The notes beneath the pieces were generated by a model that worked only from the letters and a program-made list of their open reading frames with translations, was not told the DNA's origin and made no database searches. A program made the translations under genes and the position numbers. This document shows, in pieces, positions 2,442 through 13,944 of a stretch of 64,000 bases of DNA. Source of the DNA: Oscillospiraceae bacterium. GTDB lineage: Bacteria > Bacillota > Clostridia > Oscillospirales > Ruminococcaceae. The stretch covers positions 124,001 to 188,000 of the forward strand of contig JAJQBX010000012.1 in assembly GCA_021203065.1 (NCBI GenBank), given 5' to 3'. Each line of letters starts with the position of its first letter. The stretch's first letter is position 1.

Positions 2442-3191
2442 TTGGGAACGCTGCATTTGCACATCGACTTCGTTCCATTTACCACAGGAAGCAAGCGAGG
2501 ACTCGACACAAGGGTGTCCCTGAAACAGGCACTCGCAAATGAAGGTTTTGTCGGGAAGGGCAAAGGCGAGACGGAGTGGGCAGTGTGGGTTCGCTCTGAA
2601 AAAGAACAGCTCGCAGAGATTATGCAGAGCCACGGCATCGAGTGGGAGCAGAAAGGCGAACATCGGAAGCGTCTCAGTGTGCTTGAATACAAGCGGGAAC
2701 AGAGAGTGCAGGAGCTTGCAGAACTTACCGAGCAGACTCAGCAAAAAGAGGCGGAAGCGGCGGCTCTTGACAAGCAGATTGAGAAGACAAAGCAAAAGAA
2801 AGTGAACATCGACAGCATCGACAAAATCGAAGTCAAGCCGGTAATGCTTTCGTCGTCGAGGGTGTCTCTTGACAAGAAAGATTACGAAACGCTGTCCGTC
2901 GCCGCCAAGAAGTTCTATGCCCAAGAAAAGAAAGAATTGAAGCTCCAGAAAGCTCTCGACTCGGCAAACAAGATGGTTGGTGACCTGAAAGCGGAAAACT
3001 CCTCGCTTAAAGACGAGCTGTTCAAGTATAAATCTGTCCGCAATAAGTTGAATGCGAAAGAACTTGAGAAAGAAAATGAGCGATTGCGGGGAAAAGTCCG
3101 GATGTATGAGGATGCGATTTCACGGAATAATTTGTGGCATCTGTTTGGCGGGGAGCAGGGAATAGGGCGTATGAGGGACAATTCGAGGTGA
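2442..3191 (+). pseudogene. 5'-truncated MobV/Mob_Pre plasmid mobilization relaxase
   Basis: The frame begins abruptly with the conserved relaxase motif HLHIDFVPF (the HxHxD metal-binding region of the MobV/Pre family) and continues through the 'RVSLKQAL' segment into a long Glu/Lys-rich coiled coil (about residues 65-225), the usual C-terminal half of these proteins. Full MobV proteins have roughly 150-200 residues before this motif, including the N-terminal catalytic part. Here the only start is a TTG directly at the motif, and a terminator sits 20 bp upstream, so the N-terminal half has been lost. The product is unlikely to nick DNA. Base composition is richer in G+C than the flanking genes. 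It is the clearest sign that this block arrived on a mobilizable element. Confidence 0.8.
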
Positions 3192-3509: not shown

Positions 3510-3538
3510 TTGCATTTTTAGTCGAAATGTGGTATAAT
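3510..3538 (+). promoter_or_regulatory. Sigma-A promoter of abiH
   Basis: TTGCAT (3510-3515), a 17-bp spacer, and TATAAT (3533-3538). Transcription would start near 3545. That excludes the ATG at 3527 as a start codon of the following gene. Confidence 0.8.
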
Positions 3539-3571
3539 AAATTCAAATACATCAAGAAAGAGGCGAACGCA

Positions 3572-4633
3572 GTGAATATAACATTTTTCATAGGTAACGG
3601 ATTTGACATTAACCTCGGTTTAAAGACCAGTTATTCTGATTTCTATGGTTATTTTGCCGAGAAAGCTTCCAACGACAACATGATTCGTAAATGGCTTGAA
3701 GAGGATGGTCAAAATGTGTCCTTGTGGTCTGATTTAGAGTCTGCACTTGGGCAAAAAATTGGGCGAAAAATGGAAAAAGTTAATAACGATACACTTGACA
3801 AATTCAACAATGACAAAATAGAGCTGGATAGGCTTTTGCTAGATTACTTGGAGGGTGAACAGCAACAATTATCTTTTGAAAGCAAAGAAGAAATTGCCAC
3901 CGAAATGGAAAGAAGTTTGCAGAGATATACAGATAATCTGAGTGAAGCCGATGAAACTTCTATCAAATCAACTTGCAATAAGTTCAAAGAAGAAGAGTTC
4001 AAATACTGTTTCGTATGCTTTAACTATACTGATACTTTGGATCAGATTATCGACATAACGAAAAGTCTGAAACCTAAAATTGCAACTCATGCAAGCGGTG
4101 GGCTAATTGTTAAAGATACTATTGGCGATTTAGTACATATTCATGGCAAACTTGACGAAGGTATGATATTGGGCGTAAATGACAAGGATCAGATAAACAA
4201 TGAGGAACTTTCAAATAACGATGACCTACTGGATACTTTCGTTAAAGAGTGGGCGAACGAAGCTATTGGACAGCGCAGAGTAGATCATGTTAGGGATATT
4301 CTCAAGCAAAGCCATATTATTTGCATCTTCGGAATGTCAATGGGAGAGACAGACAAGATGTGGTGGGTTGAGATTATAAATTGGTTAGAATCAAATGAAA
4401 GCAACAAAGTTATTGTTTGCAGCTTTAGTGACGAAATAAATCAGCAGAGAAGACCAGTATCCAGCATGGTTCCATTGCGAAAAGACGCAAAAAACACACT
4501 ATTGCGTTACGCCGGGTTGGACAGAGGTAGCCCAGAGTATTCAAAGCTTTCAAAACAGGTTTTGGTATCATTTAACACCAAAATCTTCGAATTCAAGGAT
4601 TTATTACTTGAACACAGTACAGAGAAAAACTAA
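3572..4633 (+). CDS. AbiH-family abortive phage infection protein
   Basis: The 353-aa product begins with the AbiH hallmark FFIGNGFDINLGLKTSYSDF (a nucleotide-binding-like GNGFD loop and the G-L-x-T-S-Y-x-D-F helix) and later carries V-H-I-H-G-K-L-D-E ... I-L-G-V-N-D and I-C-I-F-G-M-S-M-G-E-T-D, both typical of the family. AbiH was first described as a lactococcal phage-abortive-infection gene; its mechanism is unresolved. The GTG at 3572 is the start because the promoter -10 box overlaps the upstream ATG (3527), and AAGAAAGAGG lies about 8 nt before the GTG. The gene has its own promoter and is AT-rich like the restriction gene downstream, so it is probably an independent defence cassette. 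Confidence 0.85.
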   Translation: MNITFFIGNGFDINLGLKTSYSDFYGYFAEKASNDNMIRKWLEEDGQNVSLWSDLESALGQKIGRKMEKVNNDTLDKFNNDKIELDRLLLDYLEGEQQQLSFESKEEIATEMERSLQRYTDNLSEADETSIKSTCNKFKEEEFKYCFVCFNYTDTLDQIIDITKSLKPKIATHASGGLIVKDTIGDLVHIHGKLDEGMILGVNDKDQINNEELSNNDDLLDTFVKEWANEAIGQRRVDHVRDILKQSHIICIFGMSMGETDKMWWVEIINWLESNESNKVIVCSFSDEINQQRRPVSSMVPLRKDAKNTLLRYAGLDRGSPEYSKLSKQVLVSFNTKIFEFKDLLLEHSTEKN

Positions 4634-4715
4634 TGAATTGCGAGGCATTAATTCTTCACTACTGATTAAGTGGAGAATTTTCGCTTTATAATCCTCTAAA
4701 ATGGACTATAGAAGA

Positions 4716-4744
4716 TTGAAATCGCAAAGCGATTGTGATATAAT
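4716..4744 (+). promoter_or_regulatory. Upstream tandem promoter (P1) of the restriction-modification operon
   Basis: TTGAAA (4716-4721), 17-bp spacer, TATAAT (4739-4744). Predicted start near 4751, immediately before the 22-bp palindrome, so the palindrome would lie at about +5 to +26. Confidence 0.75.
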
Positions 4745-4755
4745 ATAAAATGTTG

Positions 4756-4777
4756 AAGTGTTTTTGCAAAAACACTT
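4756..4777. repeat. Perfect 22-bp palindrome between the two promoters
   Basis: AAGTGTTTTTG is followed directly by its exact reverse complement, with no loop. There is no T-tract, so it is not a normal terminator. Its position just after the P1 start and about 60 bp before P2 suits an operator for a dimeric regulator or a transcript-end structure. A 12-codon frame with a plausible ribosome site (ATG 4805, stop 4838-4840) follows it and could be a leader peptide; this is weak. Confidence 0.6.
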
Positions 4778-4836
4778 GCGAAGTATCGGGATGTAGAAAG
4801 GCAGATGAACGGCAATGGAATCCTCTCGATACAGAG

Positions 4837-4865
4837 TTGAAAAGAAAGATTCTTTGTGATATACT
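4837..4865 (+). promoter_or_regulatory. Downstream tandem promoter (P2) of the restriction-modification operon
   Basis: TTGAAA (4837-4842), 17-bp spacer, TATACT (4860-4865). The spacer ends in TTTGTGA, as in P1 (ATTGTGA), so P1 and P2 look related. The start would be near 4872, leaving about a 100-nt leader before the gene, with an AAGGAG ribosome site close to the ATG at 4970. Confidence 0.7.
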
Positions 4866-4969
4866 ATTGTGAAGAGAAAATCGCCATGATAGTAAGATTA
4901 AATAACCAGCAAATATAATTGGCAGGAAGCCGTCTTAAAAACGTAATTATTACATAAGGAGTGTAAACG

Positions 4970-7876
4970 ATGAGTAATAGTATAATGCCGTTAGAAGCTG
5001 ATACCAGAGTGTTGATAGATAATAGCCTTACTAACCTTGGCTGGAAGCTTACTGGTGTAGACCGTAATGTCTATTTCGAACAGACTCGTACTGATGCTGA
5101 GAAGAAAAAGCTTGGTGGTAAGCGCCCAGATTATGTACTTTATTCTAAGGATAGTGATAAGCCTCTCATCGTAATTGAAGCCAAAAAGAAAGGCTCTCGT
5201 ATCGATTTGGCACTAGAGCAAGGCATAAATTATGCAAGAGCTATTGAGGCTCCTCTTGTTTTCGCTACTGACGGCGTTTTCTGTAAGTCTTACCATACAA
5301 TTGCAAATCGACCGCCTATTCTTAATGGAGAAGAAGTAGACGAATTTATTCGCGAATCGCTTGCTTTGCGCTATTTAACATCTTATGAAGTCAATACAGT
5401 AAGCTCAAAAGTTCAGTACGATCGTAAAGAACTTATCCGAATTTTTGATGAGGCAAATAATATGCTTCGTGGCGAAGGCTTGCGCGCTGGTATTGAACGT
5501 TTCGGAGAATTTGCTAATATTCTGTTCTTGAAACTCGTAAGTGAAAGTGAACAGATTAAACAAGAGAGTGGAATAAAGACAGAGTTTGATATGGCATGCA
5601 GTTGGGATGCTATTAAGAATGTAAGTCTATCTGCGAGAATTGATTATATCAATAATACCGTTTACAAAAGGCTTAACAATCTGTATAAGACTGATATATT
5701 TACTCCGCTTCAAATCAGAGATGAAAGTATTTTAAAAGAAATAATGGATAAGCTTGATCCTCTTATGCTAACTGACGTTGATAGCGATGTCAAGGGAGAT
5801 GCTTTTGAATATTTCCTTAAAGCATCTACTGCTACCAAAAATGATTTAGGAGAGTATTTTACGCCTCGTCATATAGTTAAGACGATGGTTCGATTAGTCA
5901 ATCCACAGATTGGTGAGAAAGTTTACGATCCGTTTTGCGGTACTGGTGGCTTTCTAATTGAAAGCTTCCGCTATATCTACAATAGTATGGCACGCACTGA
6001 GACAAATCTTGAATTGCTTCGTGGGAAAACGATATACGGTAATGAGATCACAAACACTGCAAGGATTACAAAGATGAATATGATTCTTGCTGGTGACGGA
6101 CATAGCAATATTAAGATGCAGGACAGCCTTGCTAATCCGATAGATGGGACGACAACTTGGACAGATGAAAAAGGAAATTCTCATCATAACGGATTCGATG
6201 TTGTTCTCACAAATATGCCGTATTCTCAAAGGACTAAACATGGAGAATTATACGATTTGCCGAGCACAAACGGTGATAGCGTATGTGTTCAACATTGTAT
6301 AAAAGCGGTTAATAATACAGCGGAAAACGGTCGTATGGCTATTGTTGTTCCTGAAGGATTTCTGTTTCGGAAAGATTTAACGAAGACGAGAGAATATTTG
6401 TTGGATAATTGTCAGTTACAAAGCGTTATTTCGCTGCCCCAGGGCGTATTTTTGCCGTACACGGGCGTAAAAACTGATATTATATATGCGACAAAAGTCA
6501 ATCAAAAAGTCAAGTCATCCGATAAGAAAAAGAGCTTTTGGTATTTTGATGTCAAAAGTGATGGATATACGCTTGATAACCATAGGCGCAAGCTTGATAC
6601 GCCGAGCGATTTGAGCAAATATGAAGAATATCGCAAACTGGATGTAGATCAAGCTGAGGATATGCAAAAAGTGGGATTTGAAATTATTCCGCTTGAAAAA
6701 GTGAGAGGGAACTCTTATATTCTTGTTGGAAGTAGATACAGAAAACAGAGGCCAATTTCATCCAAGTATGAAGTTGTCAAAATAGGCGAAGTGGCTTCTG
6801 TTGTAAACGGGTACGCTTTTCCTATGTCTTTACAAGGACTGGGTGGAACAATTCCGTTTTACAAGGTTGGAGATATGAATTCTCCCGGAAATGAAATTGA
6901 AATGCACCGGAGCAACAACTATGTTTCTGATGACGTTGCTAAGTCCAGGAGGTGGAAGGTGGTGCCGACGGGAACTGTTATCTTTCCAAAGATAGGTGCG
7001 GCTATTGCTACGAATAAAAAGAGAATTCTTTCAGAACCAGCTCTCTTTGACAATAATGTTATGGGAATTGTATGCGGAGAAAGGGTTTTGTCACGGTATT
7101 TATTTTATATGATGAATGCAATTGATATTTCAAAGTGGGCATCTCTTTCAAATCCGCCGTCAATATCTAGTAGGGAGGTTTTAGAACAGGGTATTCCTTT
7201 GCCCTCTATCGAAATTCAACGTCAAATAGTTGCAGAGCTTGATGGGTATCAGCAAGTCATAGCTGGTGCTCAGAGTATTGTGTCAAGTTATAGGGCGAGA
7301 CTTGCTCCAAAAAATAATTGGAAGTCTGTTTGTTTGGGTGATTTGTTTGAGGCTGTCTCCGACACTGTTAATCCATTTGAGCAATCAGGAAAAGTTGTAT
7401 ATATTGGACTAGAGAATATTGAATCTAATACAGGAAATTTGATCGGACAGTTCGAGTGCGAAATGAACGCAATAAAAAGCATTAAGAGAGTCTTTAAGAA
7501 AGGCGATATCTTATTCGGAAAATTAAGACCAGCCCTAAATAAGGTTGCTTTTTCTGATGTTGATGGTATTTGTTCAACAGACATTATTGTTCTCCGTGCT
7601 AAGGATAGTAGCTTGGAATCAGAGTTATATAGCGTTTTACTCAGAAGTGATGAATTCAACAGCTCGGTTATGAACGGTATTAGCGGAGGTCAACTCCCAC
7701 GTGTAGACACGGAATATTTGATGCATTTGCCCATATACAAGATACCTATAGAAGAACAAAACTCTTTAATCGAACAATTGCATTATGAGCAATCCCTGAT
7801 TGAACCCTCAAAGAAGCTTATCGAAGTTTTTCGTGCTAAGATAGAGAATCGAGTTAAAGAAATATGGGGTGAGTGA
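4970..7876 (+). CDS. Single-chain restriction-modification enzyme: PD-ExK nuclease + HsdM-like methylase + two HsdS-like recognition domains
   Basis: This 968-aa protein fuses all parts of a restriction system except a translocase. Residues 1-150 form an HsdR-N-like nuclease domain with a PD-ExK site (PD at 53-54, E70-A-K72). Residues about 155-560 are an N6-adenine methylase: an HsdM_N-type helical part, the SAM motif DPFCGTGGF (from residue 320) and catalytic motif N415-M-P-Y, a variant of the usual N-P-P-Y/F. Residues about 595-770 and 785-960 are two target-recognition domains, each followed by an HsdS-type helix (IEIQRQIVAEL; IPIEEQNSLIEQL). The layout is that of Type IIG/IIB-like enzymes that cut and methylate from one chain. 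No HsdR helicase lies in the window. Two tandem promoters lie upstream, and the next gene is translationally coupled. Confidence 0.88.
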   Translation: MSNSIMPLEADTRVLIDNSLTNLGWKLTGVDRNVYFEQTRTDAEKKKLGGKRPDYVLYSKDSDKPLIVIEAKKKGSRIDLALEQGINYARAIEAPLVFATDGVFCKSYHTIANRPPILNGEEVDEFIRESLALRYLTSYEVNTVSSKVQYDRKELIRIFDEANNMLRGEGLRAGIERFGEFANILFLKLVSESEQIKQESGIKTEFDMACSWDAIKNVSLSARIDYINNTVYKRLNNLYKTDIFTPLQIRDESILKEIMDKLDPLMLTDVDSDVKGDAFEYFLKASTATKNDLGEYFTPRHIVKTMVRLVNPQIGEKVYDPFCGTGGFLIESFRYIYNSMARTETNLELLRGKTIYGNEITNTARITKMNMILAGDGHSNIKMQDSLANPIDGTTTWTDEKGNSHHNGFDVVLTNMPYSQRTKHGELYDLPSTNGDSVCVQHCIKAVNNTAENGRMAIVVPEGFLFRKDLTKTREYLLDNCQLQSVISLPQGVFLPYTGVKTDIIYATKVNQKVKSSDKKKSFWYFDVKSDGYTLDNHRRKLDTPSDLSKYEEYRKLDVDQAEDMQKVGFEIIPLEKVRGNSYILVGSRYRKQRPISSKYEVVKIGEVASVVNGYAFPMSLQGLGGTIPFYKVGDMNSPGNEIEMHRSNNYVSDDVAKSRRWKVVPTGTVIFPKIGAAIATNKKRILSEPALFDNNVMGIVCGERVLSRYLFYMMNAIDISKWASLSNPPSISSREVLEQGIPLPSIEIQRQIVAELDGYQQVIAGAQSIVSSYRARLAPKNNWKSVCLGDLFEAVSDTVNPFEQSGKVVYIGLENIESNTGNLIGQFECEMNAIKSIKRVFKKGDILFGKLRPALNKVAFSDVDGICSTDIIVLRAKDSSLESELYSVLLRSDEFNSSVMNGISGGQLPRVDTEYLMHLPIYKIPIEEQNSLIEQLHYEQSLIEPSKKLIEVFRAKIENRVKEIWGE

Positions 7877-7878
7877 AG

Positions 7879-8661
7879 ATGCCAGAAGAAGTTGACTATG
7901 AGGAAGTGCCTCATTTACAGGAAATACTCAACTTTCTTCCGATTAGTCCGATAGACGAAGAAGATGTAGCAGGCTATATTCAAAATGTTACTAATCTAGT
8001 GGCGGTGAATTATAAATATGGTCAATATCAATTCGCATACTTTGGCGTTCATCTCCTCTATATGACCTACATCTACTGTACAGCGTGGAAAATAAGCCAG
8101 ATAGAGCCGGAAAGGTATAGGGATGCTATAGTATTTGCTCGTGCTTATAATGGAAGGGATAGAGACTTAAAAATTGAGGATGCAGAGTCTATTTTTGCAT
8201 ATAGTTTAATGCCAGAAAAAGACATTGCAAAGCTATTTAAAATCATTGAGTTGGATAATTCTCAGATAGCGAATGTCGGAATTTTGGTTGACACCAGAAA
8301 TGAAATGGCTCATGCATCCGGAAAATTTGAAATATTGACGGATGATGGATTTGAAACTAAGGCAAGTAGTGTCCTTAACTCAATGGCTGTCATCCATGAC
8401 CGCATGAAAAAATTGATTCGAAAATGGTATGAGGAAGTATTGCTTAGTTACTGTGCAGGCGAATATGAGGGATATGATAATCCGCAAGATTTTATAGCTG
8501 AACAAATGATACAATCTTTTAAGCTATCAGTTAAAGAGCTACTTGTATGCAATGAGATGAGTGTTAGTCAGCTTATTACAGCTCACCGTGGATATGATAA
8601 AAAGCTAAAAGACTTTAAGAAAGCTGTAAATGACTATTGTAAAGAATGGCTGTATACATAA
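7879..8661 (+). CDS. HEPN-motif protein coupled to the restriction-modification gene
   Basis: I do not recognise a named family. The 260-aa product is predicted to be mostly helical and carries R140-N-E-M-A-H145, an RX4H motif in the sequence context (D-T-R-N-E-M-A-H-A-S-G) typical of HEPN-domain ribonucleases and HEPN-like toxins. The ATG at 7879 lies 2 nt after the restriction gene's TGA, with GGGGTGAG just upstream; a GTG at 7873 overlapping that stop is an alternative. The spacing implies translational coupling and a fixed ratio with the restriction enzyme. By analogy with anticodon nucleases linked to restriction systems it might be a back-up RNase or a toxin held by the enzyme, but that is inference. 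No terminator separates it from the next gene, 105 bp away. Confidence 0.6.
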   Translation: MPEEVDYEEVPHLQEILNFLPISPIDEEDVAGYIQNVTNLVAVNYKYGQYQFAYFGVHLLYMTYIYCTAWKISQIEPERYRDAIVFARAYNGRDRDLKIEDAESIFAYSLMPEKDIAKLFKIIELDNSQIANVGILVDTRNEMAHASGKFEILTDDGFETKASSVLNSMAVIHDRMKKLIRKWYEEVLLSYCAGEYEGYDNPQDFIAEQMIQSFKLSVKELLVCNEMSVSQLITAHRGYDKKLKDFKKAVNDYCKEWLYT

Positions 8662-8766
8662 GTTGGGTTCTTATGGTGATTTTCTTACGACTGTAGATTG
8701 AGTTTGTGGAGGGGACTATTAGGGGATGGAGTGAGAAGTTTCAAAACATCCAGATAGGAGAATAAA

Positions 8767-9849
8767 ATGAACGACTTAGACACAAGACATACAAACGAAG
8801 AATTTCTTAAAAATATCTCCGACGTCCTTGCCTCGGCAAGGAAGAACGTCAAGACAGCCGTCAATCTCTCGATGGTCTATGCCTATTATGAAATCGGGCG
8901 GAGAATCGTGGAGGAAGAACAAAACGGTGCCGACAGGGCGAGCTACGGAAAGTATCTCTTGAAAGAGCTTTCCGAATATCTCACGGGAATTTATGGCAAG
9001 GGATTTTCTCTGACAAATCTCAAGCAAATGAGGCAGTTCTATCTCACGTTTACAAACGACCAAATTGGTCAGACACTATCTGACCAATTCAAAAATCTTC
9101 CATCAACGGTTGACGGGCGGAAATTCTTCCTCAGTTGGTCGCACTATCTGATGCTGATGAGAATCAAGAACACCGACGAACGGCATTTTTACGAAATCGA
9201 AGCCGTAAAGAACGATTGGAGCCTCTCGGAGCTGAAACGCCAGTATAACAGCTCGCTGTACGAAAGGCTTGCTTTGAGTACCGACAAGGACAAGGTTTAT
9301 CGCCTGTCAACGGAAGGTCAAAAAATCGAGACTGTGCAGGATGCAATCAAAGACCCGTATGTGCTTGAATTTCTCGGACTGCCGGAATTGCCCGAATACT
9401 CGGAGACGGAGCTTGAAACCCGCCTGATTGACCACTTGCAACAGTTCCTTCTGGAACTCGGCACCGGCTTCGCGTTTGTCGGTCGTCAACAGCGGTTCAC
9501 CTTCAACGAGGAGCATTTCATCGTGGACTTGGTATTCTATAACCGACTTCTCAGAAGCTTCGTCCTGTTCGATTTGAAAATCGGCGAGCTGAAGCATCAA
9601 GACATTGGGCAGATGCAGATGTATGTGAACTATTACGACCGCAAGGTGAAGCTCCCGGACGAGAACCCGACGATAGGTATTATTCTCTGTAAGGATAAGA
9701 ATAATGCCGTCGTAGAGATGACCCTGCCGGAAGACAACTCGCAGATATTTGCGAGTAAGTATGAAACCGTCCTGCCGAGTAAGGAGGATTTGAAAAAGTT
9801 ACTGGAGGAGCAGATGGGGGAAGAAGATGGAGAACTGGGTTCTTTATAA
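8767..9849 (+). CDS. YhcG/DUF1016-family PD-(D/E)XK nuclease
   Basis: The 360-aa protein matches the YhcG family. The N-terminal DUF1016_N helical part (residues about 10-160) has A-Y-Y-E-I-G-R-R-I-V-E and Y-G-K-x-L-L-x-x-L-S. The C-terminal nuclease fold (about 215-345) has F-I-V-D-L-V-F-Y-N, F-D-L-K-I-G-E-L-K and D-I-G-Q-M-Q-M-Y-V-N-Y-Y-D. The Asp of V-D-L and the D-x-K of F-D-L-K are the expected catalytic acid and lysine. Family members are common in restriction and defence islands; their target is not established. The gene is clearly richer in G+C than its AT-rich neighbours, so it probably joined the island separately. It has its own ribosome site (ATAGGAG) before the ATG. Confidence 0.85.
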   Translation: MNDLDTRHTNEEFLKNISDVLASARKNVKTAVNLSMVYAYYEIGRRIVEEEQNGADRASYGKYLLKELSEYLTGIYGKGFSLTNLKQMRQFYLTFTNDQIGQTLSDQFKNLPSTVDGRKFFLSWSHYLMLMRIKNTDERHFYEIEAVKNDWSLSELKRQYNSSLYERLALSTDKDKVYRLSTEGQKIETVQDAIKDPYVLEFLGLPELPEYSETELETRLIDHLQQFLLELGTGFAFVGRQQRFTFNEEHFIVDLVFYNRLLRSFVLFDLKIGELKHQDIGQMQMYVNYYDRKVKLPDENPTIGIILCKDKNNAVVEMTLPEDNSQIFASKYETVLPSKEDLKKLLEEQMGEEDGELGSL

Positions 9850-9877: not shown

Positions 9878-10840
9878 ATGAGCATTGAGTATTATTTTAT
9901 GGATGACTTTTGCAAGATGAGTAATGGGTGGCTGAAAGAATTGTACAATTCTGAAAGTAAAATGATATACCATTACACTTCACAAGATGTCTTGCTTTCA
10001 ATATTGCGAAATCAGTCCTTGCGATTTTCAGACAGATTTTACTTAAACGATAAAACAGAGGGGATATATACTCTGAATCTGGTTATAGACAACTTAGATG
10101 AAATCATATCTGATGACTCAAGGCTCGCACCTAACAAGGATAGAATAAAGAACGATTGCCAAGATTATTTGAAAGACTTTAAAGATGATAGGTACAAGGT
10201 GTATCAATGCTCATTCTCGTTGGACAATGATTGTTTACCTATGTGGAATTATTATACTAAAAACAATGAGTTGCAAGGAGTAAATATTGGGTTTAATTCA
10301 GATGAGCTCGCAAAATCCATAGATAAAAAGATACAACGTTCAGATAGGGTTGACGAAGGTCAACGATTTGTGCTTGGCGGTACTGTTGTGTATGATAAAG
10401 CGAAGCAGATTGAGATAATCAAAGGTTATGTAGCTGAGTATGAAAGATTAGTTGGTAGAGAAACGCCTGATATTCCTCTGTACAATAGAAAGGCTGCAAA
10501 GTTATTTAAGAGAGTTTTAGATCGTATCGTCTTAGCGGGAACTTTCTTCAAAGCGGATTGTTTTTCTTTTGAACATGAATATCGTTTGGCTGTTAGCTTA
10601 TACAATGAGGGCGGAACGTTTGAGGCACTAAAAGATAAGAAAGTGGAATACATAAGTCGCAACAACTTTTATATGCCATACATAGATTTATCCTTTGACT
10701 TGCCGTGTATAAAATCTATTGCACTTTCGCCAACATATAACTTTGAGAACATGAAAGATAATGTGCAGGCTATGCTCAGAAGCTTTGGCGTTAGTGATGA
10801 TGTAGAGATTGTGCAGTCTCAAATACCTGTAAGGTATTAG
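9878..10840 (+). CDS. DUF2971-family protein
   Basis: This 320-aa protein shows the DUF2971 pattern: an N-terminal Y-H-Y-T-S-Q-D-V-L-x-S-I-L (residues 31-44), then L-R-F-S-D-R-F-Y-L-N-D-K-T-E, then C-S-F-S-L-D-N-D-C-L-P-M-W-N-Y-Y-T (about 110-127) and F-E-H-E-Y-R-L-A-V near residue 230. The family is widespread near phage-defence genes and has been compared with ADP-ribosyltransferase-like folds, but the function is unproven. The ATG at 9878 follows GAGGTGAAAA, a good ribosome site. It starts 28 bp after the YhcG stop and may be co-transcribed with it. Base composition is AT-rich like the restriction genes. Confidence 0.75.
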   Translation: MSIEYYFMDDFCKMSNGWLKELYNSESKMIYHYTSQDVLLSILRNQSLRFSDRFYLNDKTEGIYTLNLVIDNLDEIISDDSRLAPNKDRIKNDCQDYLKDFKDDRYKVYQCSFSLDNDCLPMWNYYTKNNELQGVNIGFNSDELAKSIDKKIQRSDRVDEGQRFVLGGTVVYDKAKQIEIIKGYVAEYERLVGRETPDIPLYNRKAAKLFKRVLDRIVLAGTFFKADCFSFEHEYRLAVSLYNEGGTFEALKDKKVEYISRNNFYMPYIDLSFDLPCIKSIALSPTYNFENMKDNVQAMLRSFGVSDDVEIVQSQIPVRY

Positions 10841-12936: not shown

Positions 12937-13944
12937 ATGGATAGCGAGATGCAGTTTTTGATTTATAAATCGGCAGAAGAAGACGTGTCCGTCAACGCAG
13001 TCATAAAGGATGAAACCATCTGGCTCACGCAAAGAGCCATGGCAGAGCTTTTTGGCGTTGAGGTTCCTGCTATTTCAAAGCATCTGTCAAACATCTATGA
13101 GGAGGGTGAGCTTGTCAGAGAGCGAACTGTTTCCAAAATGGAAAGTGTTCAGGCGGAAGGAAACAGGAGTGTAAGAAGACAAGTAGACTATTATAATCTC
13201 GACGCCATTATTTCCGTGGGGTATCGTGTGAATTCCCGCAGAGCTACACGTTTCCGCATCTGGGCAACAGGAATCCTGAAAGAATACATGACAAAGGGAT
13301 TCGTGCTTGATGACGACCGCCTGAAGCAAGGAAGAACAGTTTTTGGAGAGGATTACTTCAGAGAGTTACTGGAGAGAGTTCGTTCTATTCGTGCGAGCGA
13401 ACGCCGTATCTGGCAACAGATTACCGATATTTTTGCCGAATGCAGTATCGACTATGATGAGGATTCAAAGATAACGCAAGACTTTTACGCTATGGTACAG
13501 AACAAGTTCCATTATGCCATTGTAGGTCAGACTGCGGCTGAAATTGTATATACTCATGCTGACAGAAACAAAGAAAATATGGGTCTTACAACATGGAAGA
13601 ACTCGCCTGACGGCAGGATTCTGAAATCCGATGTGTCTATAGCAAAAAACTATCTTGACGAAAGACAAATCCGCCGCTTGGAACGTGCAGTCAGCGGTTA
13701 TTTTGACTACATAGAAGATCTGATTGAAAATGAAAACACTTTTACGATGGAGGAATTTGCAGCGAGCGTCAATGAATTTCTGTCATTTCGTAGGTTCGAT
13801 ATTCTGAAAGACAAGGGCAGAGTTTCTGCAAAAGAAGCCAAGGCAAAGGCAGAAGAGGAATATATCGAATTCAATAAAACGCAAAAGATTACTTCTGATT
13901 TTGATAAAGAAGTAAAAAAGATGCTTGAGAGCAATAAATTATAA
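12937..13944 (+). CDS. rhuM: RhuM-family protein
   Basis: The 335-aa product matches the RhuM (virulence_RhuM) family along its length: I-W-L-T-Q-R-A-M-A-E-L-F-G-V near residue 30 (a helix-turn-helix-like part), Y-N-L-D-A-I-I-S-V-G-Y-R-V-N-S near 90, F-R-I-W-A-T-G-I-L near 108, and an acidic helical C-terminus. Members are widespread in Salmonella pathogenicity islands, plasmids and gut Firmicutes. The name comes from a virulence screen and the molecular role is unknown; a DNA-binding, toxin-like or defence role has been suggested. It sits 7 bp behind the peroxiredoxin gene, probably sharing its transcript. Confidence 0.85.
   Translation: MDSEMQFLIYKSAEEDVSVNAVIKDETIWLTQRAMAELFGVEVPAISKHLSNIYEEGELVRERTVSKMESVQAEGNRSVRRQVDYYNLDAIISVGYRVNSRRATRFRIWATGILKEYMTKGFVLDDDRLKQGRTVFGEDYFRELLERVRSIRASERRIWQQITDIFAECSIDYDEDSKITQDFYAMVQNKFHYAIVGQTAAEIVYTHADRNKENMGLTTWKNSPDGRILKSDVSIAKNYLDERQIRRLERAVSGYFDYIEDLIENENTFTMEEFAASVNEFLSFRRFDILKDKGRVSAKEAKAKAEEEYIEFNKTQKITSDFDKEVKKMLESNKL

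Follow-up and report, generated by a model that had tools for sequence, protein, structure and literature searches.

A HEPN-family gene coupled to a one-chain restriction-modification enzyme in an Oscillospiraceae bacterium: a candidate two-layer defence unit

Why does a small HEPN-family gene start two bases behind the stop codon of a restriction-modification (RM) gene? The question is raised by a stretch of 64,000 nt from an Oscillospiraceae bacterium (GCA_021203065.1, contig JAJQBX010000012.1, forward strand 124,001-188,000; hereafter the window), in which a HEPN protein of 260 aa is encoded next to a one-chain RM enzyme of 968 aa. We propose, with a probability of about one half, that the HEPN protein is a ribonuclease (RNase) which the RM enzyme restrains or switches and which is released when that enzyme is blocked, the two genes forming a two-layer defence unit. 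The features of the locus are collected in Table 1.

The HEPN gene and its partner enzyme

The ATG of the HEPN gene lies at 7879 and the TGA of the enzyme gene at 7874-7876. The gap of 2 bases behind a nuclease-methylase-specificity fusion, as claimed in a preliminary description made from the sequence alone, was borne out by the coordinates of the open reading frames. An alternative GTG start would overlap the stop of the enzyme gene, and the corresponding -4 offset was present in some homologues too. A promoter-like site in front of the enzyme gene topped the 28 such sites on both strands (14.0 expected from shuffles), and the best plus-strand site in the 1 kb preceding the HEPN gene scored at most 9/12. 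Because the best site precedes the enzyme and none above 9/12 is near the HEPN gene, one transcript for both genes would fit, as judged by consensus only.

The fusion itself was confirmed by Pfam, with matches to HSDR_N, N6_Mtase, and two Methylase_S stretches. The PD..EAK motif and the methylase motifs DPFCGTG and N-x-P-Y were each kept in 28/28 of the one-chain enzymes tested. Methylase motif IV usually has the form NPPY/F; here it reads NMPY in 27/28 enzymes and NIPY in 1/28.

The six residues R-N-E-M-A-H of the smaller protein had been put forward as an RX4H motif of HEPN RNases. The motif alone was rejected as evidence, since RX4H arises in 15.3% of shuffles of the same 260 aa (RX4-6H in 39.5%, RNX3H in 0.8%). 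It counts as significant because it is conserved across homologues. In an alignment of the query and 71 homologues (A2; 21-79% identical to the query), R140, N141, and H145 were each found in 71 of the 72 rows; the assignment is thereby upheld, and the R/H pair is not variable. R140/H145 is also the sole RX4-6H pair in the protein. Truncated or broken copies (L026, L032, L037, L038, L041, L042, and L087), three further loci (L009, L011, and L014), and the plasmid, phage, and genome-search loci (L001-L007) had been removed from A2. In the second clade described below, R127, N128, and H132 were invariant in 44/44 rows.

These counts bear on whether the protein is catalytic at all. A non-catalytic subunit could bind RNA or the enzyme and tune restriction or modification, with the HEPN fold as a scaffold. 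Non-catalytic HEPN domains are known (PMC3710099; this and the other papers are cited for the passages available to us), and at one locus, L040, the HEPN gene is open with K and R replacing R and H. However, keeping the three residues over so wide a range of identity would be needless for scaffolding, and the Type I-like core described below was also found without HEPN. We consider this explanation unlikely.

Weak matches to a Pfam HEPN family were obtained for 55 of the 72 members of A2; the window protein itself scored 15.6 bits against HEPN_RiboL-PSP (PF18735), below the curated cut-off of 28.4. Two AlphaFold models were mainly helical, and HEPN structures ranked first among the matches listed, with a modest Z, which makes the HEPN helical bundle a candidate fold. 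Sequence searches of PDB returned no HEPN row and weak rows alone (1 in one search, 5 in another), and with PHROGs two of the three proteins tried gave no match and the third a match at E=0.08. Matches of the window protein to phytochelatin synthase and other weak Pfam matches were rejected, being backed by 1-4 of the 72 members. The HEPN structure alignments stop near residue 180, and the helical extension at the C-terminus is a candidate docking part. Taken together, the 260-aa protein is likely to be a HEPN ribonuclease, as predicted from family signature and motif.

Table 1 Features of the two-gene unit and its surroundings (positions in the window).
Feature	Position	Strand	Basis
AbiH gene	3527-4633		Pfam E=6.2e-42; between 249-aa gene (2442-3191) and enzyme
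Terminator-like stem-loop behind upstream AbiH gene	4650..4679	+	Consensus scan; weak (4 found, 2.6 expected in shuffles)
Promoter-like site with extended -10 (TTGAAA-17-TATAAT), candidate promoter for both genes	4716..4744	+	11/12 match
One-chain RM enzyme, 968 aa, nuclease~methylase~specificity fusion	4970..7876	+	Pfam, PADLOC
HSDR_N-type PD-(D/E)XK nuclease domain, residues 47-102	5108..5275	+	Pfam E=9.7e-7
N6-adenine methylase domain (N6_Mtase), residues 271-596	5780..6757	+	Pfam E=6.8e-51
Specificity domain 1, residues 598-762	6761..7255	+	Methylase_S; diverged from 91% sibling L037
Specificity domain 2, residues 780-962	7307..7855	+	PADLOC Specificity_I; Methylase_S as 2 stretches
Alternative GTG start of HEPN gene (GTGA)	7873..7876	+	Sequence; overlaps enzyme-gene stop
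HEPN-family protein, 260 aa, likely RNase effector	7879..8661	+	Motif, alignment, Pfam, models, linkage
RX4H motif R-N-E-M-A-H, residues 140-145	8296..8313	+	Alignment A2 (see text)
C-terminal helical extension, residues about 202-256, invariant S217	8482..8646	+	Predicted model; S217 in 72/72
DUF1016/YhcG nuclease gene	8767-9849		Pfam/PADLOC
DUF2971 gene	9878-10840		Pfam/PADLOC
RhuM gene	12937-13944		Pfam/PADLOC

Linkage to RM genes and the two RM cores

Homologues were gathered by HEPN sequence alone (80 loci of 91 relatives, plus plasmid, phage, and genome scans). After removal of L014 and L054, which repeat the contigs of L006 and L007, and of L037 (split HEPN gene), 83 loci were counted. 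RM genes were found upstream of HEPN in 78 of them; in 73 an RM reading frame was directly upstream, and in 72 of these the start codon lay within 60 bases of the stop. At L061, L069, L075, and L082, RM genes were upstream with other genes intervening, and at L041 a broken HEPN gene stands behind an RM fragment. The genes in between at the former four loci, following a methylase-specificity fusion (M~S), were AAA_21, SIR2-like, putAbiC, and weakly DUF4145-like. Five loci had no RM gene upstream: two at contig ends (L012 and L087), two with a 5'-truncated gene (L026 and L032), and L066, which looks intact and has RM-like genes elsewhere in its genome. The sequence of L032 is partly N, also upstream of the gene, so the absence there is not sure.

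The loci are spread over many phyla; two copies (L031 and L046) are on contigs labelled Micrarchaeota and Nanoarchaeota, which may reflect transfer or a binning error. Because relatives of this HEPN protein nearly always follow DNA-cutting systems, the family probably serves as a second, harsher layer of defence against viruses. Mere chance proximity within a defence island would be in keeping with the surroundings (AbiH, DUF1016, DUF2971, and RhuM), but it is very improbable in view of the linkage count across many phyla and of the divergence that HEPN and methylase share, as described next.

A fixed pair with a Type IIG-like enzyme had been suggested at the outset. The linkage to RM genes proved very strong, whereas the partner turned out not to be of one kind. 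Among the 73 adjacent loci, it was a one-chain enzyme in 26 and an HsdR helicase (about 845 aa) together with an M~S fusion, the Type I-like core, in 34; the 13 untyped upstream genes were mostly cut by the contig. In a tree of 63 rows (methylase stretch above 250 aa and whole HEPN), the HEPN proteins split by RM core with a support of 100 on both sides in the SH-like approximate likelihood ratio test (SH-aLRT). The methylases of the two cores were 28% identical on average. At L039, the HEPN protein was 48.5% identical to the one-chain clade and 19.6% to the other, and the methylase shared 58% identity with the Type I-like clade and 28% with the other. Because L039 thus joins a HEPN of the one-chain clade to a Type I-like methylase, its sequence indicates that HEPN has moved between RM cores, barring an assembly error.

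With the same 63 rows, the divergence of HEPN and methylase was correlated at 0.82 overall and at 0.70 and 0.27 within the two clades; 0, 0, and 2 of 999 permutations, respectively, reached these values. The correlation is explained in part by the shared ancestry of a linked cassette. A contact surface for HEPN would be expected on the nuclease, methylase, or specificity parts, which both architectures share; the helicase is not shared, the one-chain enzyme having none. The pair of architectures, together with the natural swap seen at L039, narrows the possible location of this contact.

When 396 genomes of the family were surveyed from the enzyme side, the window enzyme and three close relatives (at least 53% identity; one was matched over residues 319-968 only) were present, with HEPN behind 4/4. 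Some observations weigh against a strict pairing. In this survey, 26 other loci lacked HEPN within flanks of about 1.5 kb, beyond which a HEPN farther downstream would be missed. Over nuclease and methylase, one-chain relatives with about 43% identity are encoded by 33 Acinetobacter phage records, one Geobacillus plasmid, and one Acinetobacter plasmid. In the two inspected, a phage record (L174) and the Geobacillus plasmid (L175), the enzymes of 760 and 752 aa, respectively, are shorter than that of the window, with no HEPN in the stretch fetched. A scan of viral contigs with the one-chain enzyme gave one locus, L173, matched over residues 1-320 only and with no HEPN inside.

The HEPN gene is rare, being present in 2/197 family genomes and 2/398 phylum genomes (the window's own in both), 1/72,556 plasmids, and 1/50,697 phage records. 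Viral contigs yielded no relative when scanned with the window HEPN singly and 1 locus with a 5-row alignment.

Restraint, activation, and the slot behind the specificity domain

In the mechanism that we propose, the one-chain enzyme probably methylates its own sites in the host DNA and cuts unmethylated foreign DNA. The HEPN ribonuclease would be made in step with the enzyme and would be harmless while bound to it. A virus that blocks or occupies the enzyme (Ocr of T7 is an inhibitor of RM enzymes) would free the RNase or switch it on, and the RNase would then cut RNA, halting both the cell and the virus. The HEPN family signature, the conserved R/H pair, the close coupling, and the linkage to RM genes are seen in the sequences, whereas the activities of enzyme and RNase, their binding, the inhibition, and the trigger are inferred. 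The order of loss leans towards restraint rather than activation by the enzyme, because the enzyme without HEPN is tolerated and HEPN without the enzyme is truncated in 2 of 3 cases; only a handful of cases is involved.

Gene order and coupling would equally suit an addiction module, in which a HEPN toxin keeps the RM cassette, the enzyme is the antitoxin, and infection plays little role. The patchy distribution given above also suits it, as do the mobile surroundings of relatives (a plasmid with recombinase and transposition genes, and prophage contigs). However, RM enzymes are addictive on their own, and at L040 and L037 the enzyme persists with HEPN lost or disabled; in L037 two frames take the place of the single HEPN gene, with the enzyme open (an assembly error is possible). 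We therefore hold an addiction module to be improbable.

The same position behind the M~S fusion can hold other genes. L119 (5406-12954), on an F-type plasmid of E. coli, has the same Type I-like core (R plus M~S) with a 951-aa SMC-like ATPase gene third (Pfam AAA_21 and SMC_N), the protein of which we take by eye to have a PHP-like start. Among 54 records whose methylase is 60-80% identical, this is the one inspected. The prophage contigs L167 and L169 agree at 89-90% to either side of the slot, which holds a 1018-aa metallophosphoesterase-STAND gene in L167 and a diverged HEPN (RNKHLH) plus a DUF3644 gene in L169; they also differ in the latter part of the specificity region. HEPN was carried by 6 of 13 Type I-like cores on viral contigs, which are not all new (L160 and L088 are one contig, and L164 agrees with L065 at 99.96%); of the 7 without HEPN, L172 breaks off early and L162 and L163 resemble each other. 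A search for further M~S cores around G508 (29 genomes) gave a close match to its own only. A prophage Type I system with separate methylase and specificity genes (L171, 7001-10335) has a diverged HEPN (RDPMAH) behind the specificity gene. We tentatively suggest that the place directly behind the specificity domain of M~S-fused RM enzymes may be a plug-in slot for interchangeable effectors, with the HEPN family as one plug. The methylase-specificity module would then be the sensor, so that HEPN would need no nucleoside triphosphatase (NTPase) and could move between cores as distant as those above. We regard this generalisation as possible but doubtful.

Alternatively, the RM enzyme, on meeting unmethylated DNA, could activate the HEPN RNase allosterically instead of restraining it, making it an effector as Csm6 is for Type III CRISPR. 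The linkage and motif data fit this equally; the ATPase and metallophosphoesterase-STAND genes resemble triggered effectors, and the intact L066 copy without neighbouring RM genes would be costly as a free toxin. Against it, 2 of the 3 copies without RM upstream are 5'-truncated, as a free toxin predicts (few cases, one beside partly N sequence), and Pfam matched no second-messenger domain. Allosteric activation is thus a serious but less probable alternative, and we retain release of a restrained RNase as the preferred reading.

Surroundings and comparison with known systems

The genes around the pair form a defence island. At the sibling locus L037, positions 4687-6739 and 7851-9825 of the window are matched at 91%; the specificity domains are unlike those of the window, save for 87 bases between them. 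Because both flanks match but the specificity domains do not, the unit seems, by this comparison, to travel as a block with changing target recognition. The AbiH stretch is missing in L037, where the 249-aa gene (which we presume from inspection by eye to be relaxase-like) and the RM unit are almost side by side; for this reason the stretch looks like an insertion. A 326-aa protein (1394-2374) gave weak matches below the cut-off to DUF4145, a HEPN-type family, and DUF5677, and is possibly a second HEPN-like gene.

Was the pair already known? It was undescribed in the titles and abstract starts listed, a scope that takes in few subscription papers and no bioRxiv preprints or supplements and is not proof of absence. 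The initial suggestion of an undescribed two-part system therefore stands in part: the HEPN family, the helicase-free RM partner, and the swappable slot behind the specificity domain seem new, whereas the theme of HEPN with RM is known from PrrC/EcoprrI and from at least 16 HEPN clades linked to RM systems, for which Anantharaman et al. (2013) made a guard-like proposal (PMC3710099). This HEPN family with its pair of RM cores was not found in the Table 1 passages of that paper, and may overlap one of the 16 clades. Standalone HEPNs have been described as backup effectors in BREX-related systems (PMC12839542), and small HEPN genes occur with restriction endonuclease genes in Thermus proviruses (PMC11437467).

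HepT/MntA shares with the window pair the RX4H motif and a partner gene that comes first (PMC3710099, PMC7641770), but the tyrosine of its RX4HXY is replaced by N, S, or T at +2 in 72/72 members of this family. A HEPN/MNT toxin-antitoxin reading was rejected on this ground and because none of the 10 window proteins scanned with Pfam matched MNT. Single-chain Type IIG/IIB enzymes of the AloI type have the same order of nuclease, methylase, and two target recognition domains in one chain (PMC3874165); the window enzyme differs in its length (968 aa against about 1250), its HsdR-type nuclease domain, and its HEPN partner. Enzymes of the AloI type cleave to either side of a bipartite site.

A close parallel is PrrC, a HEPN RNase encoded in the RM operon EcoprrI that provides a back-up once the RM enzyme is blocked (PMC3710099, PMC3874165); the window HEPN is likewise encoded in an RM operon. 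PrrC joins HEPN to an ABC-ATPase and is paired with a Type IC system, whereas the 260-aa protein has no ATPase match in Pfam and no PADLOC match, and its partner is a one-chain fusion or R plus M~S. Membership in PrrC/RloC was rejected for want of an ATPase match. PrrC/EcoprrI is the worked example of an RM enzyme restraining a lethal RNase, an anticodon nuclease that cuts tRNA-Lys, and PrrC has its own ATPase. If the proposed reading is true, the window pair would be a simpler two-protein system, in which a small HEPN without an ATPase is combined with a one-chain enzyme without a helicase.
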